From: Deltaproteobacteria bacterium CG11_big_fil_rev_8_21_14_0_20_47_16
Lineage (GTDB): Bacteria; UBA10199; GCA-002796325; 1-14-0-20-47-16
Direction of reading: 5' to 3'
Length of the DNA stretch: 64,000 nt
Assembly: GCA_002796325.1 (NCBI GenBank)
Contig: PCXA01000018.1
Location: forward strand, 1 to 64,000
In this document: positions 19,562-37,160 of the stretch, piece after piece
How positions within the stretch are numbered: the first letter of the stretch is position 1
Layout of the letters: each line of letters starts with the position of its first letter
Translations under genes and position numbers: made by a program
Notes under the pieces: model-generated
The model's database searches: none
Seen by the model: only the letters and a program-made list of their open reading frames with translations
What the model was told of the DNA's origin: nothing

Positions 19562-21259
19562 ATGTCAGATGGTGTTAAACGCAAAATTGCAATTGTGATT
19601 AATGGGGACACAGCGGCGCGTCACGCCAAAAACGTGGATCGCGCTGTAAGTCAGCTTAATAAAAAAGGCTATCAGTGTTTTGTGGCAAGTAACGAAGCCC
19701 CAAGCTCACCGACCTCGATGTACCGTAAGGCCACTCCTCAGAATATCGATCAACTTATTGAAGCAGCAAAGGCCCAGTTGGATGGGGACGATGAATTGCT
19801 TATCTATACTACGGGTCATGGTGGCAAGGTTGATGGTCAGGAGTGTATTGTTGTTGGTGATCTCAAAGCTAATCATAGTTGTGAAGCAGACCTATATAAG
19901 AAATTGGATAATTTAAAATTTGGCAAGCGTGTTGTGGTGATGGACCAATGTTACAGTGGTGGCATGGCCCGACTCTTCACAGATAACGCAAAGTCCGCAT
20001 TTATTTCGGCAGGCAGTAGTGATGAAACCGTATGTTGTGGGGATTTTGCACCGCGCCTGTGGGCAGACGATTCAGAGGTGAAAGACATTAACAAAGATGG
20101 CGTGATCAGTTGGGGGGAGCGATTTGAATATGCCAAGAAAGGTGTGATTCAAGCCAATCTCAAGTCCATACCTCAATTTATAACCACTAAGGGATTTGAA
20201 GATGACGGTGTTCATTTTGCACCCTATGTTATTGAGGTTGATAACTCCGCTAGTATGAATGAGCAGTTGAGCCGGTTAAGGCCTGGGCAGACAGCGGTTG
20301 TTACGTTCTCAATGGATAGGTGTCTTCCGTGTAGAGAATTGAAGCCCAAGTTTAATGGGCTTGCAGAGAGTGATGTGGGTCAGAATCTTTGGTTGCGGAC
20401 TGAGAATACAAGTGTTGGTAATGAATATGGCATTCAATCTTTCCCAAAAGTAGTTATTTTTACAATGAAGGAGAATGGGGTTAAAGAAATGAATGTGGTT
20501 ACTAACAGAGATAAAATACGAGAAACACTTCAGGCTGTTCAATTAGGATCGTATGATAACGTCAATGAGATTGCAAACAATGAAGACCCCATCAACCGTG
20601 CTATAGCGTATGCAAGATTGGCATTTATGTTGGAAAAGTCTGGGCAACCTAATAAAGCGATCCCTCTTTATATAAAGGCCATTTCAGCAACAGCAGAAAC
20701 GCAACTGCGAGGTCTGCTGCGTCGACAACAACGTTTGCCTGGTGCTTATCAAAAAGTGGGTCGGTTGCTCGCGCTGTCGGGGCTTGAAGATTCGGTTAAA
20801 ACACAGTTGTTTTCTCAATTGATTCAGAAGGTGGATGATCTATACGACAATGCCCAGGATAGTTATATACAAAGTTTGGCAGAGTCCCTTGTAGTTTCAC
20901 GGCAGCGGGGCACCTCTGAATACACGGCTGTATATCTCTTTAAAGACCTGATTGCTGCTGCAGCCAAAATCAATAAGCCAGATAGCTGTGGTCTCGCTAG
21001 TTTAGATAATATTGCTCTGTATGTTAAGGCAGCTCAGTTGGGTGCAGCCCAGGAACCATTGTTTAATCAGCTGATTGGTGAAGCGGTGAAACAGAAGGAC
21101 CATGTGGCGCTTCGGGGTATTGCCGATGCTGTTTCACAGTCTGACTTGGGCGAAAGAAAAACTGCAGTATTGATGAAAATTTACAAGGAATCTCAAAAGA
21201 TAATTGGCAATCAAAATTCTGAATACATTCGTCGTCTTATAGAGAAAAATCCTACCTAA
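19562..21259 (+). CDS. Caspase-like peptidase fused to thioredoxin and TPR regions
   Basis: 565 aa, no signal peptide, so probably cytoplasmic. Residues ~8-225 form a caspase/legumain-clan (CD) peptidase core: KIAIVINGD at the first strand, IYTTGHGG with catalytic His86, and VVVMDQCYSGG with catalytic Cys130. An EF-hand-like loop, DINKDGVISWGE (175-186), lies inside it, suggesting Ca2+ control. Residues ~238-325 are a thioredoxin fold: TAVVTFSMDRCLPCRELKP with the CxxC pair at 254/257 and the cis-Pro in SFPKVVIF. From ~340 on there are TPR-like helices (AIAYARLAFMLEKSGQPNKA) and a helical tail. A Shine-Dalgarno GGGGGCGG precedes the ATG. I know no family with this domain order. Function unknown. 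Confidence 0.82.
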   Translation: MSDGVKRKIAIVINGDTAARHAKNVDRAVSQLNKKGYQCFVASNEAPSSPTSMYRKATPQNIDQLIEAAKAQLDGDDELLIYTTGHGGKVDGQECIVVGDLKANHSCEADLYKKLDNLKFGKRVVVMDQCYSGGMARLFTDNAKSAFISAGSSDETVCCGDFAPRLWADDSEVKDINKDGVISWGERFEYAKKGVIQANLKSIPQFITTKGFEDDGVHFAPYVIEVDNSASMNEQLSRLRPGQTAVVTFSMDRCLPCRELKPKFNGLAESDVGQNLWLRTENTSVGNEYGIQSFPKVVIFTMKENGVKEMNVVTNRDKIRETLQAVQLGSYDNVNEIANNEDPINRAIAYARLAFMLEKSGQPNKAIPLYIKAISATAETQLRGLLRRQQRLPGAYQKVGRLLALSGLEDSVKTQLFSQLIQKVDDLYDNAQDSYIQSLAESLVVSRQRGTSEYTAVYLFKDLIAAAAKINKPDSCGLASLDNIALYVKAAQLGAAQEPLFNQLIGEAVKQKDHVALRGIADAVSQSDLGERKTAVLMKIYKESQKIIGNQNSEYIRRLIEKNPT

Positions 21260-32311: not shown

Positions 32312-33865
32312 CTATCTCCCGCGGACATGTGGAAAATCACGAAACATACGGGTGCGTTCGACGCGAATTCGCTCAAGGGGATGGACTTCTATCAGGCGAC
32401 CCAGAGCCTGGGGCCCAATTAGTTCGCAGATCTGGGTTTGAATTGCCAGGCTGGAACCTGGGTTGCGGATGATGTCGTAAATAGTGCTGGGGGAGACATT
32501 TAAGTGGTGTGCCAGATCCATTGTGATTTTGACGGCTTCGGCATTCCCCACACGTCCCAATTCAAGTCGTTGGCGAATGTTGGAAAAGTGAGAGTCCGCT
32601 GGGAGGTATTCAAGGCGTTCACTTACAACGGGTTCCATTGTGCGTGTTAACTCACCCATAATGGCATCTACGAGTCCAATGATCGTTTGCACAAATGTTG
32701 CGGGGCGAGAGGTTTGGGAACTCGATAAAATGCGGAGCTGGAGGTGGCCCTGATTGATCATGTGAAATGCGCCTGCGAATTGGGCATCCCAAAACGTATA
32801 AGCACTTTCCAGAAAATGGTCCAACGCTTGAATTTTATTTTTGGGATGGCGGCGTTCTACAATGGAACTGCTGGCAACTTCAGAATATGATTGGTGCCAA
32901 GAGGTGAGGAGTCTTTCAAAAATGGAGTCTTCAGGATAGTGATGTTCACCAATGGAAATGGCTATTGCAAGGGCCAGTCCGCGATCCGCCTGATCCGATG
33001 TGAGGTGTGTATGTGCGTTGCGATTATGGGTGATTTCCCTTGGGTCCACAAATGCAAGCATCTTGGGAACGAGTTGGTTATATAGTGCATCCCAATCAGA
33101 AAGTTGCGTGTTAATAAATGCAACAAGGCGGACCGCATCGGCCACTATTGAAGGATCTGCTTCTGCAGCATTTACGGCCAAGTTGGTTAAGTGGCGTGCC
33201 AGTTGGGCAGTCACTTGTAAGGCGGACGGTGCATCGCCAGATGCAAAGTAGTGGGCGGCGCTCCAGATGGCAGCATCTGCAAAGGCAGACTGACCGTTTT
33301 CTAAAAGTAATGCAATATCTTGTGCCATTGTCTGTGCTGTTTTGCGTCTTAGGTCCATTGCGTCAGTGAGTGTAACGAGTTCATATTTGGAAGCATGGTC
33401 TGAAGCCACTGCAAATGCAGAGGAGACGATATACCGTAAAACAGAATCAGTGTGTTCTGCATAAGCTTGCTGTGCAGCGACCCCCAACTCAAGTAATCCT
33501 GTAAAAAATGCAACCTGGTCACTGCTGAATCGCAAGGCTTCTACCGCCATACCAAGTACAGTTGCTTTGATTGTGGCATCAGGTTCTTGAGATACACTCT
33601 CTCGAAACTGCATGCCCGATTGGCGATATAGCTGAGGTGCTGTGTCATGCATAAATCGTTCTGCAACGGCTGCGTCAATGAAGAGTCCGGTGGGCGAATT
33701 ACCATCTGTACCATGAAGTTCTGTTTTGGCCTGTGCCGCCCAACGATTGGCAATCGTCTGACTGCTGGGTAACAATGATGCATCTTCCCGAGTCTGGTGG
33801 AGTACAGGACTGAAGATGTATGCAGATGGGTTGTTATATAATTCAGTGATAAAGTCGGTTGCCAT
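32312..33865 (-). CDS. Large helical protein of unknown function
   Basis: 517 aa with no signal peptide or membrane segment. Almost entirely predicted helical by composition (many Ala-rich amphipathic stretches such as ADAAIWSAAHYFASGDAPSA). Near the C-terminus HLNVSPSTIYDIIRNPGSS looks like a helix-turn-helix or similar helical turn, but DNA binding is not established. I recognise no family. CAGGAT precedes the ATG. It lies 13 nt after the 1093-aa nuclease-like gene, so both are probably expressed together from the mfd promoter. The pair interrupts the usual mfd-ppiC neighbourhood. It could be a partner or inhibitor of the upstream protein; this is only inferred from pairing. Confidence 0.75.
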   Translation of the reverse strand: MATDFITELYNNPSAYIFSPVLHQTREDASLLPSSQTIANRWAAQAKTELHGTDGNSPTGLFIDAAVAERFMHDTAPQLYRQSGMQFRESVSQEPDATIKATVLGMAVEALRFSSDQVAFFTGLLELGVAAQQAYAEHTDSVLRYIVSSAFAVASDHASKYELVTLTDAMDLRRKTAQTMAQDIALLLENGQSAFADAAIWSAAHYFASGDAPSALQVTAQLARHLTNLAVNAAEADPSIVADAVRLVAFINTQLSDWDALYNQLVPKMLAFVDPREITHNRNAHTHLTSDQADRGLALAIAISIGEHHYPEDSIFERLLTSWHQSYSEVASSSIVERRHPKNKIQALDHFLESAYTFWDAQFAGAFHMINQGHLQLRILSSSQTSRPATFVQTIIGLVDAIMGELTRTMEPVVSERLEYLPADSHFSNIRQRLELGRVGNAEAVKITMDLAHHLNVSPSTIYDIIRNPGSSLAIQTQICELIGPQALGRLIEVHPLERIRVERTRMFRDFPHVRGR

Positions 33866-33878
33866 TGGGTATCCTGTA

Positions 33879-36800
33879 TTATGGGGCGGTGACGTAGCCG
33901 TTTAATTGAGGTTGTAGGTTATATCGTTTAATGGCTTCCAGCATGCGTGCTGCCGTCGGCATGAGCCGTACGCGTCGGACTGCTTCTGCTGGTGCACTGG
34001 CTAACCGGCCTAAAATTGTGCTGTGTCGTTCTGGGGCCAACATCCCCATGGCAATTAAGCGGTCAGTCAATAGTCGCGCTTCACGAGGGCCGGCTAATTG
34101 GACACTGTCTTTGATGCGTGCTGCAGGTGTGTATCGGGGGTTGGCATACGTGACGGTAGTGGTGCTGCCAGTATTGCTCGATGTCACTTCAACCGTAATT
34201 TCTTTGAGACGGCCGTATTGGGGCGCATTGGCAAGATTCTCTCGAAGCCAATTATCAATTCTTGTTGGGATTACGGCACGATCACTGGCAACGACCAATC
34301 TCAGATAAATGACTTGGTCCGCCGTGGGAAAGCCCTTGCGACTCTCGGCAAGCTGGCTGGCAGCTTTATCTATCGAGGTTTTAAGGTCTTCAAAATCTTT
34401 ATCATTGTGGACGCGCTTGTTTTTAACTTCCACCAATTGTGGAGTTCCCGTTCTGCCGATTACCAAAAGGTCTGCAATTTGTCGGCGGTGAATAAAGTCA
34501 ATGGGTAGAAGGCGAACCCAGCTATCACGGTCCCTGGCATAATACTGAACCGCATGGAGCTCAGCGGTGCCGTCATAGTTAGCGCTTCGCATGACGAGTT
34601 CCAATACGTTACCTGCAATGGTGGATTTGCGACGACGTGCATACTGTAAGAGATCAGCTACTTGTGATGGAATTGCAGCCCACGTTGCATGTTGATCCGG
34701 GTTTTGGGGTTCGGAAATGGCCCAGGCCATGAGTGCCACGTGCAATTCAGAATTCAAGGCAGCCCGCCGCATCAGCTCATGCATTGCATCTGTACTGACA
34801 CCTGGAATTTGTCCCTGTGCTGCCTTTCGGATTGCGGTGTTCCCTTCGTCGAACCCCTCTTTGTCAGAAAAATAATCATAGACCTCTCTAAAATCACCTT
34901 TTCCAACAACATGTCCTATCTGATGAATCAAACGTACACTGCGGTGTTCTGTGCTAAACGGTTGATCCCAAAATTGATGTTCATGGGGGAGTAAAAAACC
35001 AAATGGGTCAACTTGAGCGTTATACCCATGTGCATTGAGAATGGTGAATGCATGGAAACCATCTTGGTCTTGTTCTGGACCATAGGGTTGCATTTTTGCT
35101 TTGATCACCTTTGGATCTTGCGCAACAACGTCAATCCATCGTGCTGCGAGTGTGCGTAGCTGATCCATATTGCCGGTTCCCGCATACATCAATGCACGTT
35201 GGATAATTGCTTTGAACATGTCGGATTGCAGAGTGGTTGCTTTGCGCCAACGGCGATTACGATCTCCTTCAGTAAAGGCTTCATCCAGGGCACGTTGAAC
35301 ACGTGCTTCGGGTAAATTCATACGGCGGTCATATTCTGCTAGAATATATCCGCCCATGGGCTTGTTGGCGGTATATAATTCCCGAAGATTTTGATCAGCA
35401 ATATCAGGATCACTTTGCAAATAGGGTGTCACGTCGTGTTGAATGGTAGCCATCAATGTGTAGCTGGTTTTAAAGAGGTCAACGATCATACCCAATTGAT
35501 GTGGCGTGAAATTTGTGTTTCGCAATAACACTCTTGTATTGGAAATGATGTGAGCATTTTCACCACTCTCACGCCGCATGAGATATTCCATGCTAAACCA
35601 TCGCGCTATATCAACGCCATGAAAGAGTAGGGAGAGGCTCGCTTCCGGTGTAGGTGACTGTTTGTGTGTGAGCTCTTGTTTAAGTGCGCCCATATCTAGA
35701 ACGCCTTGCAGTCTTGCAATTCTTTGTGCATGTGCCTGAAGATGGGCGTCCACAAGTGCTAAAATTTGGTTTGCATTGGGAACCAGTTCCAAGAAGACGA
35801 CGCGAATGTGCTCCACAAAAAGACTATAATTAATGATCATCTGATCTGGATTTTCTGTGTGGAGTTCGGAATCGTGCACTTCGGCGGCATCCATGGCTTC
35901 AGAAATTCTCCTATCACGATCGCTTCGGTCGCCAGAATGCTGATTAATCAAAATGGTCAATATAATTTTGCCATCTGTTGCGATGAATGGATCGTTGAGG
36001 AGATTAACAAGCAGATTGTCAGGTTCGTCCTCCAAAAGTCGTGTGTAATATATATTCAGTAGGGTAACAACCGAGCCGGGTGATGTGGCCAGTAGTGTTG
36101 CCATATCCGTGATGCTGGCCTTGCCATCCAGAATACGATAAAAAATATCGCCAATGTCATTAAAACTAATGTCATCTGGAAGGCCATCTCCAATAATGTC
36201 GATTCCATCTGGTGGTGTGCTTGTATCTGGAGCAGGGTCAGAGGCAGATCCAGCAGCAGACGCGCGAATTTGGAGCGGACCGCCTGGGCTATTTTTTGGA
36301 GGTGATAGTTGTTCTCGCAAAGCATCGAGTTCTAATTGCTTCTTTTGCGCTTCCGAAATTTTTCCACTGGCAATGAGCTGTAAAATTTCGGATTCTAATT
36401 GTTCAATATCCAAGTTGAGTGCTGATTTTTGAATATCGTCCCAACTACGTCGTGTCAGATCGAGTTCGATAAGCGCCAATTCATCCTTGGCACGCTCTTC
36501 AATGGAATCATCCCCATTTTTTTGACGATCTAGCATTTGCAGATAAGCTGTTAGTTTTCCAGGGAGTGGAATTTCCAATTCAGAATCATCATCGGTAATG
36601 GTAATGCGATGATCACCAATATAAGTCTGACGTCTACGAATTTCGCGGAGCAGCTGCAGATCTTGTGTGGACATGTGGGCAAAGCGTCGTTCCATTTCGC
36701 GAGTAACAGCATCCGCATCTTCCCATTGTTTGGGATCCAAGCATGGGCCTGGCAACCATTCGACTTGTCTCTGTGCTTGGGCTGTCTCGACCTTTATACT

Positions 36801-37160
36801 GCGATCCATTTCATAAATGGTTACGGCTGCCGCGATAAAAGGGATGCGCCTTCCCAGCAAACTCAACCAGGGTGTCCATGGTGATGTGGGTTGCGAAATT
36901 GCTGGAGTGGGTTGTGGTGCAGGTGGTGTCGGTGCCGTTGGCTCCATCGTTGGTGTGCCAGGCATTGGGCGTGGCACACGAAATTCGGATCCAATGGGTC
37001 GTTCCACATGCATTGCACGTGTAGTGGGGCGCACCGCACGTCCCGTGGTTACAGAAGGTCGCTGAGGTTGTGCCGGTTGCACCGGTGCTTTTTGTAGTCG
37101 AATGGCGCCCATATATAGATACGGATGTATCGGCGTTTGCAGATAAAAGTTGTGTAACAC
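33879..37160 (-). CDS. Large protein with C-terminal PD-(D/E)XK-like nuclease core
   Basis: Up to 1093 aa (GTG start); an ATG 16 codons in (37112) is an equally likely start. Residues ~25-95 are Pro-rich with many PxP repeats; a short hydrophobic stretch follows (~100-115). A long helical middle, including a coiled-coil-like segment (~250-285, QLESEILQLIASGKISEAQK), runs to ~850. Then comes WVRLLPIDFIHRRQIADLLV and GTPQLVEVKNKRV, that is Asp-x(13)-Glu-x-Lys between hydrophobic strands, the arrangement of a PD-(D/E)XK nuclease, followed by a helix and VIYLRLVVAS. About 130 residues follow. I do not recognise the whole protein. Architecture recalls large toxins or effector proteins, but there is no secretion signal seen. 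Confidence 0.7.
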   Translation of the reverse strand: MLHNFYLQTPIHPYLYMGAIRLQKAPVQPAQPQRPSVTTGRAVRPTTRAMHVERPIGSEFRVPRPMPGTPTMEPTAPTPPAPQPTPAISQPTSPWTPWLSLLGRRIPFIAAAVTIYEMDRSIKVETAQAQRQVEWLPGPCLDPKQWEDADAVTREMERRFAHMSTQDLQLLREIRRRQTYIGDHRITITDDDSELEIPLPGKLTAYLQMLDRQKNGDDSIEERAKDELALIELDLTRRSWDDIQKSALNLDIEQLESEILQLIASGKISEAQKKQLELDALREQLSPPKNSPGGPLQIRASAAGSASDPAPDTSTPPDGIDIIGDGLPDDISFNDIGDIFYRILDGKASITDMATLLATSPGSVVTLLNIYYTRLLEDEPDNLLVNLLNDPFIATDGKIILTILINQHSGDRSDRDRRISEAMDAAEVHDSELHTENPDQMIINYSLFVEHIRVVFLELVPNANQILALVDAHLQAHAQRIARLQGVLDMGALKQELTHKQSPTPEASLSLLFHGVDIARWFSMEYLMRRESGENAHIISNTRVLLRNTNFTPHQLGMIVDLFKTSYTLMATIQHDVTPYLQSDPDIADQNLRELYTANKPMGGYILAEYDRRMNLPEARVQRALDEAFTEGDRNRRWRKATTLQSDMFKAIIQRALMYAGTGNMDQLRTLAARWIDVVAQDPKVIKAKMQPYGPEQDQDGFHAFTILNAHGYNAQVDPFGFLLPHEHQFWDQPFSTEHRSVRLIHQIGHVVGKGDFREVYDYFSDKEGFDEGNTAIRKAAQGQIPGVSTDAMHELMRRAALNSELHVALMAWAISEPQNPDQHATWAAIPSQVADLLQYARRRKSTIAGNVLELVMRSANYDGTAELHAVQYYARDRDSWVRLLPIDFIHRRQIADLLVIGRTGTPQLVEVKNKRVHNDKDFEDLKTSIDKAASQLAESRKGFPTADQVIYLRLVVASDRAVIPTRIDNWLRENLANAPQYGRLKEITVEVTSSNTGSTTTVTYANPRYTPAARIKDSVQLAGPREARLLTDRLIAMGMLAPERHSTILGRLASAPAEAVRRVRLMPTAARMLEAIKRYNLQPQLNGYVTAP

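Follow-up and report, generated by a model that had tools for sequence, protein, structure and literature searches.

A predicted caspase/legumain-like peptidase joined to a thioredoxin domain and a helical-repeat arm in one bacterial protein

Does a single bacterial gene encode a caspase-like peptidase together with its own thioredoxin and, if so, what might such a protein do? The question was raised by one open reading frame in the window (the whole stretch of 64,000 nucleotides that was analyzed). A first-pass annotation had read its translation as an intact clan-CD dyad, a Ca-binding loop, a CLPC redox site, and TPR helices in one chain, and it had suggested that a redox-linked caspase of this kind could be a sensor. 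The features that we located are listed in Table 1.

Table 1. Features of the 565-residue protein and their positions in the window
Feature	Residues	Position	Strand	Basis
Peptidase-thioredoxin-solenoid protein, 565 aa		19562..21259	+	ORF, ATG start
Clan-CD (C13/caspase-like) peptidase domain	8-208	19583..20185	+	Pfam C13, AlphaFold2, Foldseek
Predicted catalytic His (TTGHGG)	86	19817..19819	+	Motif; kept in 23/24 aligned relatives
Extra Cys pair lying between the dyad residues	95 to 107	19844..19882	+	Pair kept in 19/24
Predicted catalytic Cys (DQCYSGG)	130	19949..19951	+	Motif; kept in 22/24 aligned relatives
Noncatalytic Cys, after the strand following Cys130	159	20036..20038	+	Kept in 19/24
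EF-type predicted Ca-binding loop DINKDGVISWGE	175-186	20084..20119	+	Motif; exit helix in models
Thioredoxin domain	224-328	20231..20545	+	Pfam, Foldseek
Thioredoxin active site CLPC	254-257	20321..20332	+	Motif, alignment
Pro aligned with thioredoxin cis-Pro	295	20444..20446	+	Alignment
C-terminal alpha-solenoid (TPR-like helical hairpins)	332-562	20555..21247	+	AlphaFold2 helices, weak TPR_1

Domain organization of the protein

The AlphaFold2 model of the whole protein (22 sequences) had a mean pLDDT of 87.8 and a pTM of 0.70, and it placed an alpha/beta peptidase domain up to about residue 208, the thioredoxin domain at residues 224 to 328, and helices at residues 332 to 562. The motif positions, the Pfam matches, and this model bore out the earlier reading of an intact clan-CD dyad and a CLPC site in a single-chain architecture, and domain searches of the kind that reading had called for, here with Pfam and Foldseek, upheld the peptidase and thioredoxin assignments. 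No signal peptide or transmembrane segment was seen in the 565-residue protein by eye and by hydropathy. As judged from its sequence and models, the protein is a cytosolic caspase/legumain-like protease, a thioredoxin, and a helical-repeat arm in one chain.

The Pfam family Peptidase_C13 matched residues 76 to 156 (E value of 1.6e-5; 25.0 bits against a cutoff of 22.8), and the match spanned only model positions 108 to 186 of 258. The peptidase domain modeled alone had a pLDDT of 90.1 and a pTM of 0.90. When this domain model was compared with the PDB, Foldseek found the caspase/legumain fold of clan CD and family C13, with matches to MALT1 and legumain (E values of 6e-8 to 1e-6, TMq of about 0.6, probability of 1.00). 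When the motifs were mapped onto the AlphaFold2 model, each dyad residue lay where one of two neighboring strands ended: His86 followed the strand at residues 78 to 84, and Cys130 followed the strand at residues 122 to 127. The window protein had no match to Pfam C14 (caspase/orthocaspase), a family matched by 6 of 15 relatives at an E value of 0.01 or lower, and its score against the EACC1-associated caspase model NF047832 of NCBIfam was 24.1 bits, which was below the cutoff of 140.

The loop DINKDGVISWGE contained D1, N3, D5, G6, I8, S9, and E12 of the canonical EF-loop, and we predict that it binds Ca2+. It lay in the C-terminal part of the peptidase domain and was followed by an exit helix at residues 184 to 197 in the AlphaFold2 model. 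Thus, the Ca-binding loop that was originally annotated between the dyad and the thioredoxin was indeed a canonical EF-loop in that position, but it was a loop plus exit helix within the peptidase domain rather than a separate EF-hand module.

The Pfam Thioredoxin family matched residues 232 to 324 (E value of 1.1e-6; 29.1 bits against a cutoff of 23.5), and this match, the CLPC motif, and Pro295 together identified a thioredoxin domain, which gave a TMt of about 0.75 in Foldseek comparisons with thioredoxins. The residue before CLPC was Arg in the window protein and Trp in most relatives. The C-terminal helical repeats at residues 332 to 562 were clear in the AlphaFold2 model, but the TPR label originally given to them was weak. 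A single TPR_1 match, at residues 347 to 374, fell below the Pfam cutoff; the closest relatives had the same kind of repeats, and the relative L004 had a strong TPR score. Alpha-solenoid is the safer name.

Conservation of the features and distribution of the family

We aligned 24 relatives, which were 21 to 48% identical. The dyad was retained in 22 rows, the EF-loop and the CxxC motif in 16 rows each, and the extra Cys pair and Cys159 in 19 rows each. Because the dyad, the EF-loop, the CxxC motif, and the domain order recurred in relatives at 30 to 40% identity, the architecture is not a product of chance. The dyad residues were among the best conserved positions. The catalytic Cys was lost only in L004 (GQG, DQEFGG) and L020 (DQNFSG), which were sisters with support of 93/89 in a peptidase-domain tree that was otherwise poorly resolved. 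Hence, dyad loss among close homologues, which the first-pass annotation had named as an observation that would refute its proposal, did occur, but only in one sister pair. Both the way the domains are combined and the retention of active-site residues suggest that the peptidase works, and we predict that the domain is active.

The EF-loop was missing in 8 of the 24 relatives, including a second copy (L002) in the same genome as the window protein, which had GHG, DACQGG, and WCAPC motifs and a different C terminus. The loop is not unique to this family, since a C13-type locus (L107) from the phylum of Desulfonema had an EF-loop at a comparable place. The CxxC motif was absent or degenerate in eight relatives as well, six of which retained the dyad, which indicates that peptidase function would not always depend on CxxC.

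We considered two sets of cysteines as possible partners of the thioredoxin, and both candidates were dropped. The pair at Cys95 and Cys107, which usually took the form C-L-x3-C in the relatives, showed no association with CxxC (P value of 1.0); it was also present in the thioredoxin-less relatives L006, L020, L024, and L025, so its presence does not depend on a thioredoxin. Cys159 was present in all 16 rows with CxxC, and no row that lacked Cys159 had CxxC (table of 16/3/0/7 for 26 rows, i.e., the 24 rows plus two added divergent sequences; Fisher P value of 0.00018). As a control, 57 columns of similar conservation were screened against CxxC. Asn24 and Asp128 gave a table identical to that of Cys159, and several other columns were close behind. 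Therefore, the pattern separates the main group from the divergent members and cannot be taken as a sign that Cys159 is a target of the thioredoxin.

The C termini of the relatives varied, with TPR in L004 and L024, HEAT in L015/L088 and L021/L093, and other helical regions in the rest. Across the alignment, the peptidase-thioredoxin core appeared as a recurrent and fairly constant unit with a variable C terminus. Many members began with M(G/S)DG..KK immediately before the first strand and had no signal peptide. In seven relatives (L088, L092, L093, L098, L065, L069, and L071), a beta-rich stretch resembling outer membrane proteins followed the solenoid. Pfam matched none of these stretches, most of the complete ones ended in Phe (a terminal aromatic residue), and the starts of these proteins were mostly intact with no obvious signal peptide.

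A search with the single protein at an E value of 1e-5 found relatives in 20 of the 46 genomes (species) of the window's phylum, and a profile at 1e-10 likewise found them in 20 of 46; in a few of the 20 genomes, the match was the peptidase part alone or a fragment. Presence was patchy (15 of 29 high-quality genomes). The genomes of the named relatives were metagenome-assembled genomes labeled Deltaproteobacteria bacterium, several of them from groundwater. A separate single-protein scan of genome contigs found no close relatives, but the profile did. At 1e-12, the profile had no match in 395 genomes from the phylum of Desulfonema or in 399 genomes from that of Herbaspirillum; both sets were samples rather than exhaustive collections, and the matching genomes served as positive controls. 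On the basis of these samples, the family is probably confined to a single phylum. Judged by motifs alone, none of 30 C13-type loci taken from 18 of the 297 genomes in Desulfonema's phylum had a thioredoxin fusion. In the peptidase-domain tree, copies from the same taxonomic family tended to group (13 changes, with a minimum of 12 and a shuffled mean of 17.2), a pattern consistent with largely vertical inheritance plus losses.

Relation to known proteins

The window protein shares the clan-CD fold and the His/Cys dyad with legumain, a member of family C13, the family whose Pfam cutoff it exceeded. However, it was only about 15% identical to legumain, and it is predicted to be cytosolic, with an EF-loop inside the domain and a fusion to a thioredoxin and a solenoid. 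Prokaryotic caspase homologues and orthocaspases (C14) likewise join a caspase-like domain to protein interaction repeats, in TPR and HEAT fusions, but the window protein scored as C13, not as C14. Of the 671 prokaryotic metacaspases in one survey, 84% kept the dyad, and TPR ranked with the most frequent partner domains; the main text of that survey did not mention thioredoxin (PMC3501461).

The type III metacaspase PtMCA-IIIc of a diatom is reported to be Ca2+ dependent, self-processing, and redox tuned by a Cys pair (PMC8455989). In that eukaryotic enzyme, regulation was shown by experiment as reported, whereas in the window protein it is proposed; the abstract on PtMCA-IIIc mentions no thioredoxin domain (PMC8455989), and the window protein has one. 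In Chlamydomonas, thioredoxin is reported to target a type II metacaspase (PMC10980519). Algae are already known to control caspase-like proteases through redox state and Ca2+. To our knowledge, the thioredoxin is a separate protein in these algal systems. We found no caspase-thioredoxin protein in the open literature searched, and no description of the present architecture, the finding of which the first-pass annotation had said would undo its claim. With a peptidase that has its own thioredoxin, a single purified polypeptide would suffice to test how thiol state is linked to proteolysis, and the known range of bacterial clan-CD regulators would come to include a phylum that has hardly been studied.

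Genomic neighborhood and candidate functions

Upstream of the gene, on the same strand, were genes for an outer membrane efflux protein, a CusB-like adaptor with a heavy-metal-binding domain, and an RND pump. We considered a possible operon with these efflux genes; the gap between them and the 565-residue gene was 96 bp, and promoter and terminator scans scored no better than shuffled sequences. Downstream, we identified by eye a small secreted-looking ORF, a gene resembling homocysteine methyltransferase/methylenetetrahydrofolate reductase, and then histidine degradation genes. No conserved neighbor was seen in the regions around 20 relatives, and a PADLOC scan of ten proteins, of which nine were encoded in the window, gave no hit and no nearby defense system. 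These results agree with the original observation that the gene stands alone, away from any obvious defense island. Six relatives (L083, L087, L092, L093, L098, and L101) adjoined genes that by eye resembled toxin-antitoxin pairs or single ATPases.

We tentatively propose that the protein is a cysteine endopeptidase of clan CD that resides in the cytosol, has a regulatory and not a digestive role, and is gated by stress, with the solenoid as the sensor arm and the thioredoxin and Ca site as gates. The alpha-solenoid would recognize a partner or a damaged client. The integral thioredoxin would keep cysteines of the peptidase or of the bound client reduced or, alternatively, would couple the redox state of the cysteines to activity. 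Where the peptidase domain ends, the EF-loop could make ordering of the active site dependent on Ca2+, perhaps with self-cleavage. Exchangeable C termini (TPR, HEAT, or other) on a recurrent core would be expected if this region were a sensor or adaptor arm, and without a signal peptide, CxxC would meet the reducing cytosol. We infer that the thioredoxin may act on its own chain, that the role may lie in stress, and that redox state and Ca2+ may be the gating signals. Retention of the dyad (22/24), the EF-loop (16/24), and the extra Cys pair (19/24) favors a gated peptidase, for which the diatom and Chlamydomonas metacaspases offer functional parallels; absence of CxxC and of the EF-loop in 8 of 24 relatives each, the independence of the Cys pair from the thioredoxin, and the failure of the Cys159 pattern in the control count against it. 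The redox-linked caspase sensor first suggested is partly supported: the architecture was right and the core recurrent, but each putative gate was missing from a third of the relatives. A more elaborate version is improbable: phylum-specific single-chain caspase-like proteases gated by Ca2+ through the EF-loop and by thiol redox through an integral thioredoxin acting on conserved cysteines of the peptidase. In this version the sensor arms would be exchangeable, and some relatives would have a membrane-like, beta-rich domain at the C terminus that cleavage could release.

A defense or programmed-death effector, with a solenoid that would sense a signal of phage or damage and a caspase-like domain that would cleave a death factor (compare TPR-CHAT in Craspase and the caspase-like proteases of gasdermin systems), strikes us as rather unlikely. 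TPR-CHAT (Csx29) shares a clan-CD peptidase and a TPR solenoid with the window protein but is reported to be CRISPR linked. In Csx29, TPR precedes CHAT, and the protein is not known to contain a thioredoxin. The combination of a caspase-like domain with TPR or HEAT repeats, the patchy presence with variable C termini, a weak PADLOC caspase match of the window protein (E value of 0.0019), and the toxin-antitoxin-like pairs seen by eye beside some relatives speak for defense. Against it stand the solitary position between Cu/Ag-type efflux genes and methionine/histidine metabolism genes, the lack of a conserved neighbor in the 20 regions, and the lack of a PADLOC hit; in addition, the plasmid records searched contained no match, and the viral contigs contained one weak match, to the caspase part only. 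The effector role raised by the first-pass annotation thus gains no support from the neighborhood or PADLOC, and we found nothing further against it.

We think it unlikely that the protein is a proteostasis factor that, in the manner of the chaperedoxin CnoX/YbbN, would act as a holdase through its thioredoxin and solenoid and whose attached peptidase would remove oxidized clients. Escherichia coli YbbN was the top Foldseek match of the whole model (E value of 1.1e-6), and YbbN-type TPR_20 was matched in only 9 of the 46 genomes of the window's phylum, mostly partially, which would be compatible with this role. However, the match had a TMt of 0.31 and a root mean square deviation of 16 Å with a different arrangement, so only the order of a thioredoxin followed by a TPR-like solenoid is common to both proteins; CnoX/YbbN has no peptidase domain, the window protein had no TPR_20 match, and several relatives had HEAT or other C termini or no thioredoxin. 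That the protein is mostly a scaffold, with a structural thioredoxin and EF-loop and a weak or inactive peptidase, is very unlikely: the catalytic Cys was lost in one lineage (L004 and L020) and CxxC was lost repeatedly, but 22 of 24 relatives kept both dyad residues, which belong to the best conserved positions.

Some additional arrangements were observed. At L099:3360-8500, a thioredoxin-less caspase-like TPR relative lay on the same strand as a gene for a trypsin-like serine protease (by eye) and small genes, possibly in one operon. Elsewhere in the window, two minus-strand genes (33879-37160, 1,093 aa, and 32312-33865, 517 aa) had no Pfam or PADLOC match, and the stretch DLLVIGRTGTPQLVEVKNKR of the 1,093-residue protein resembled by eye a restriction endonuclease-like E-x-K core. 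Finally, the 541-residue ORF L009 was rearranged: a thioredoxin with CKAC came first and was followed by peptidase-like motifs (GHGG and VECHAAS), by the EF-like loop DIDGDGIIANWE, and by another thioredoxin-like domain, which lacked CxxC.
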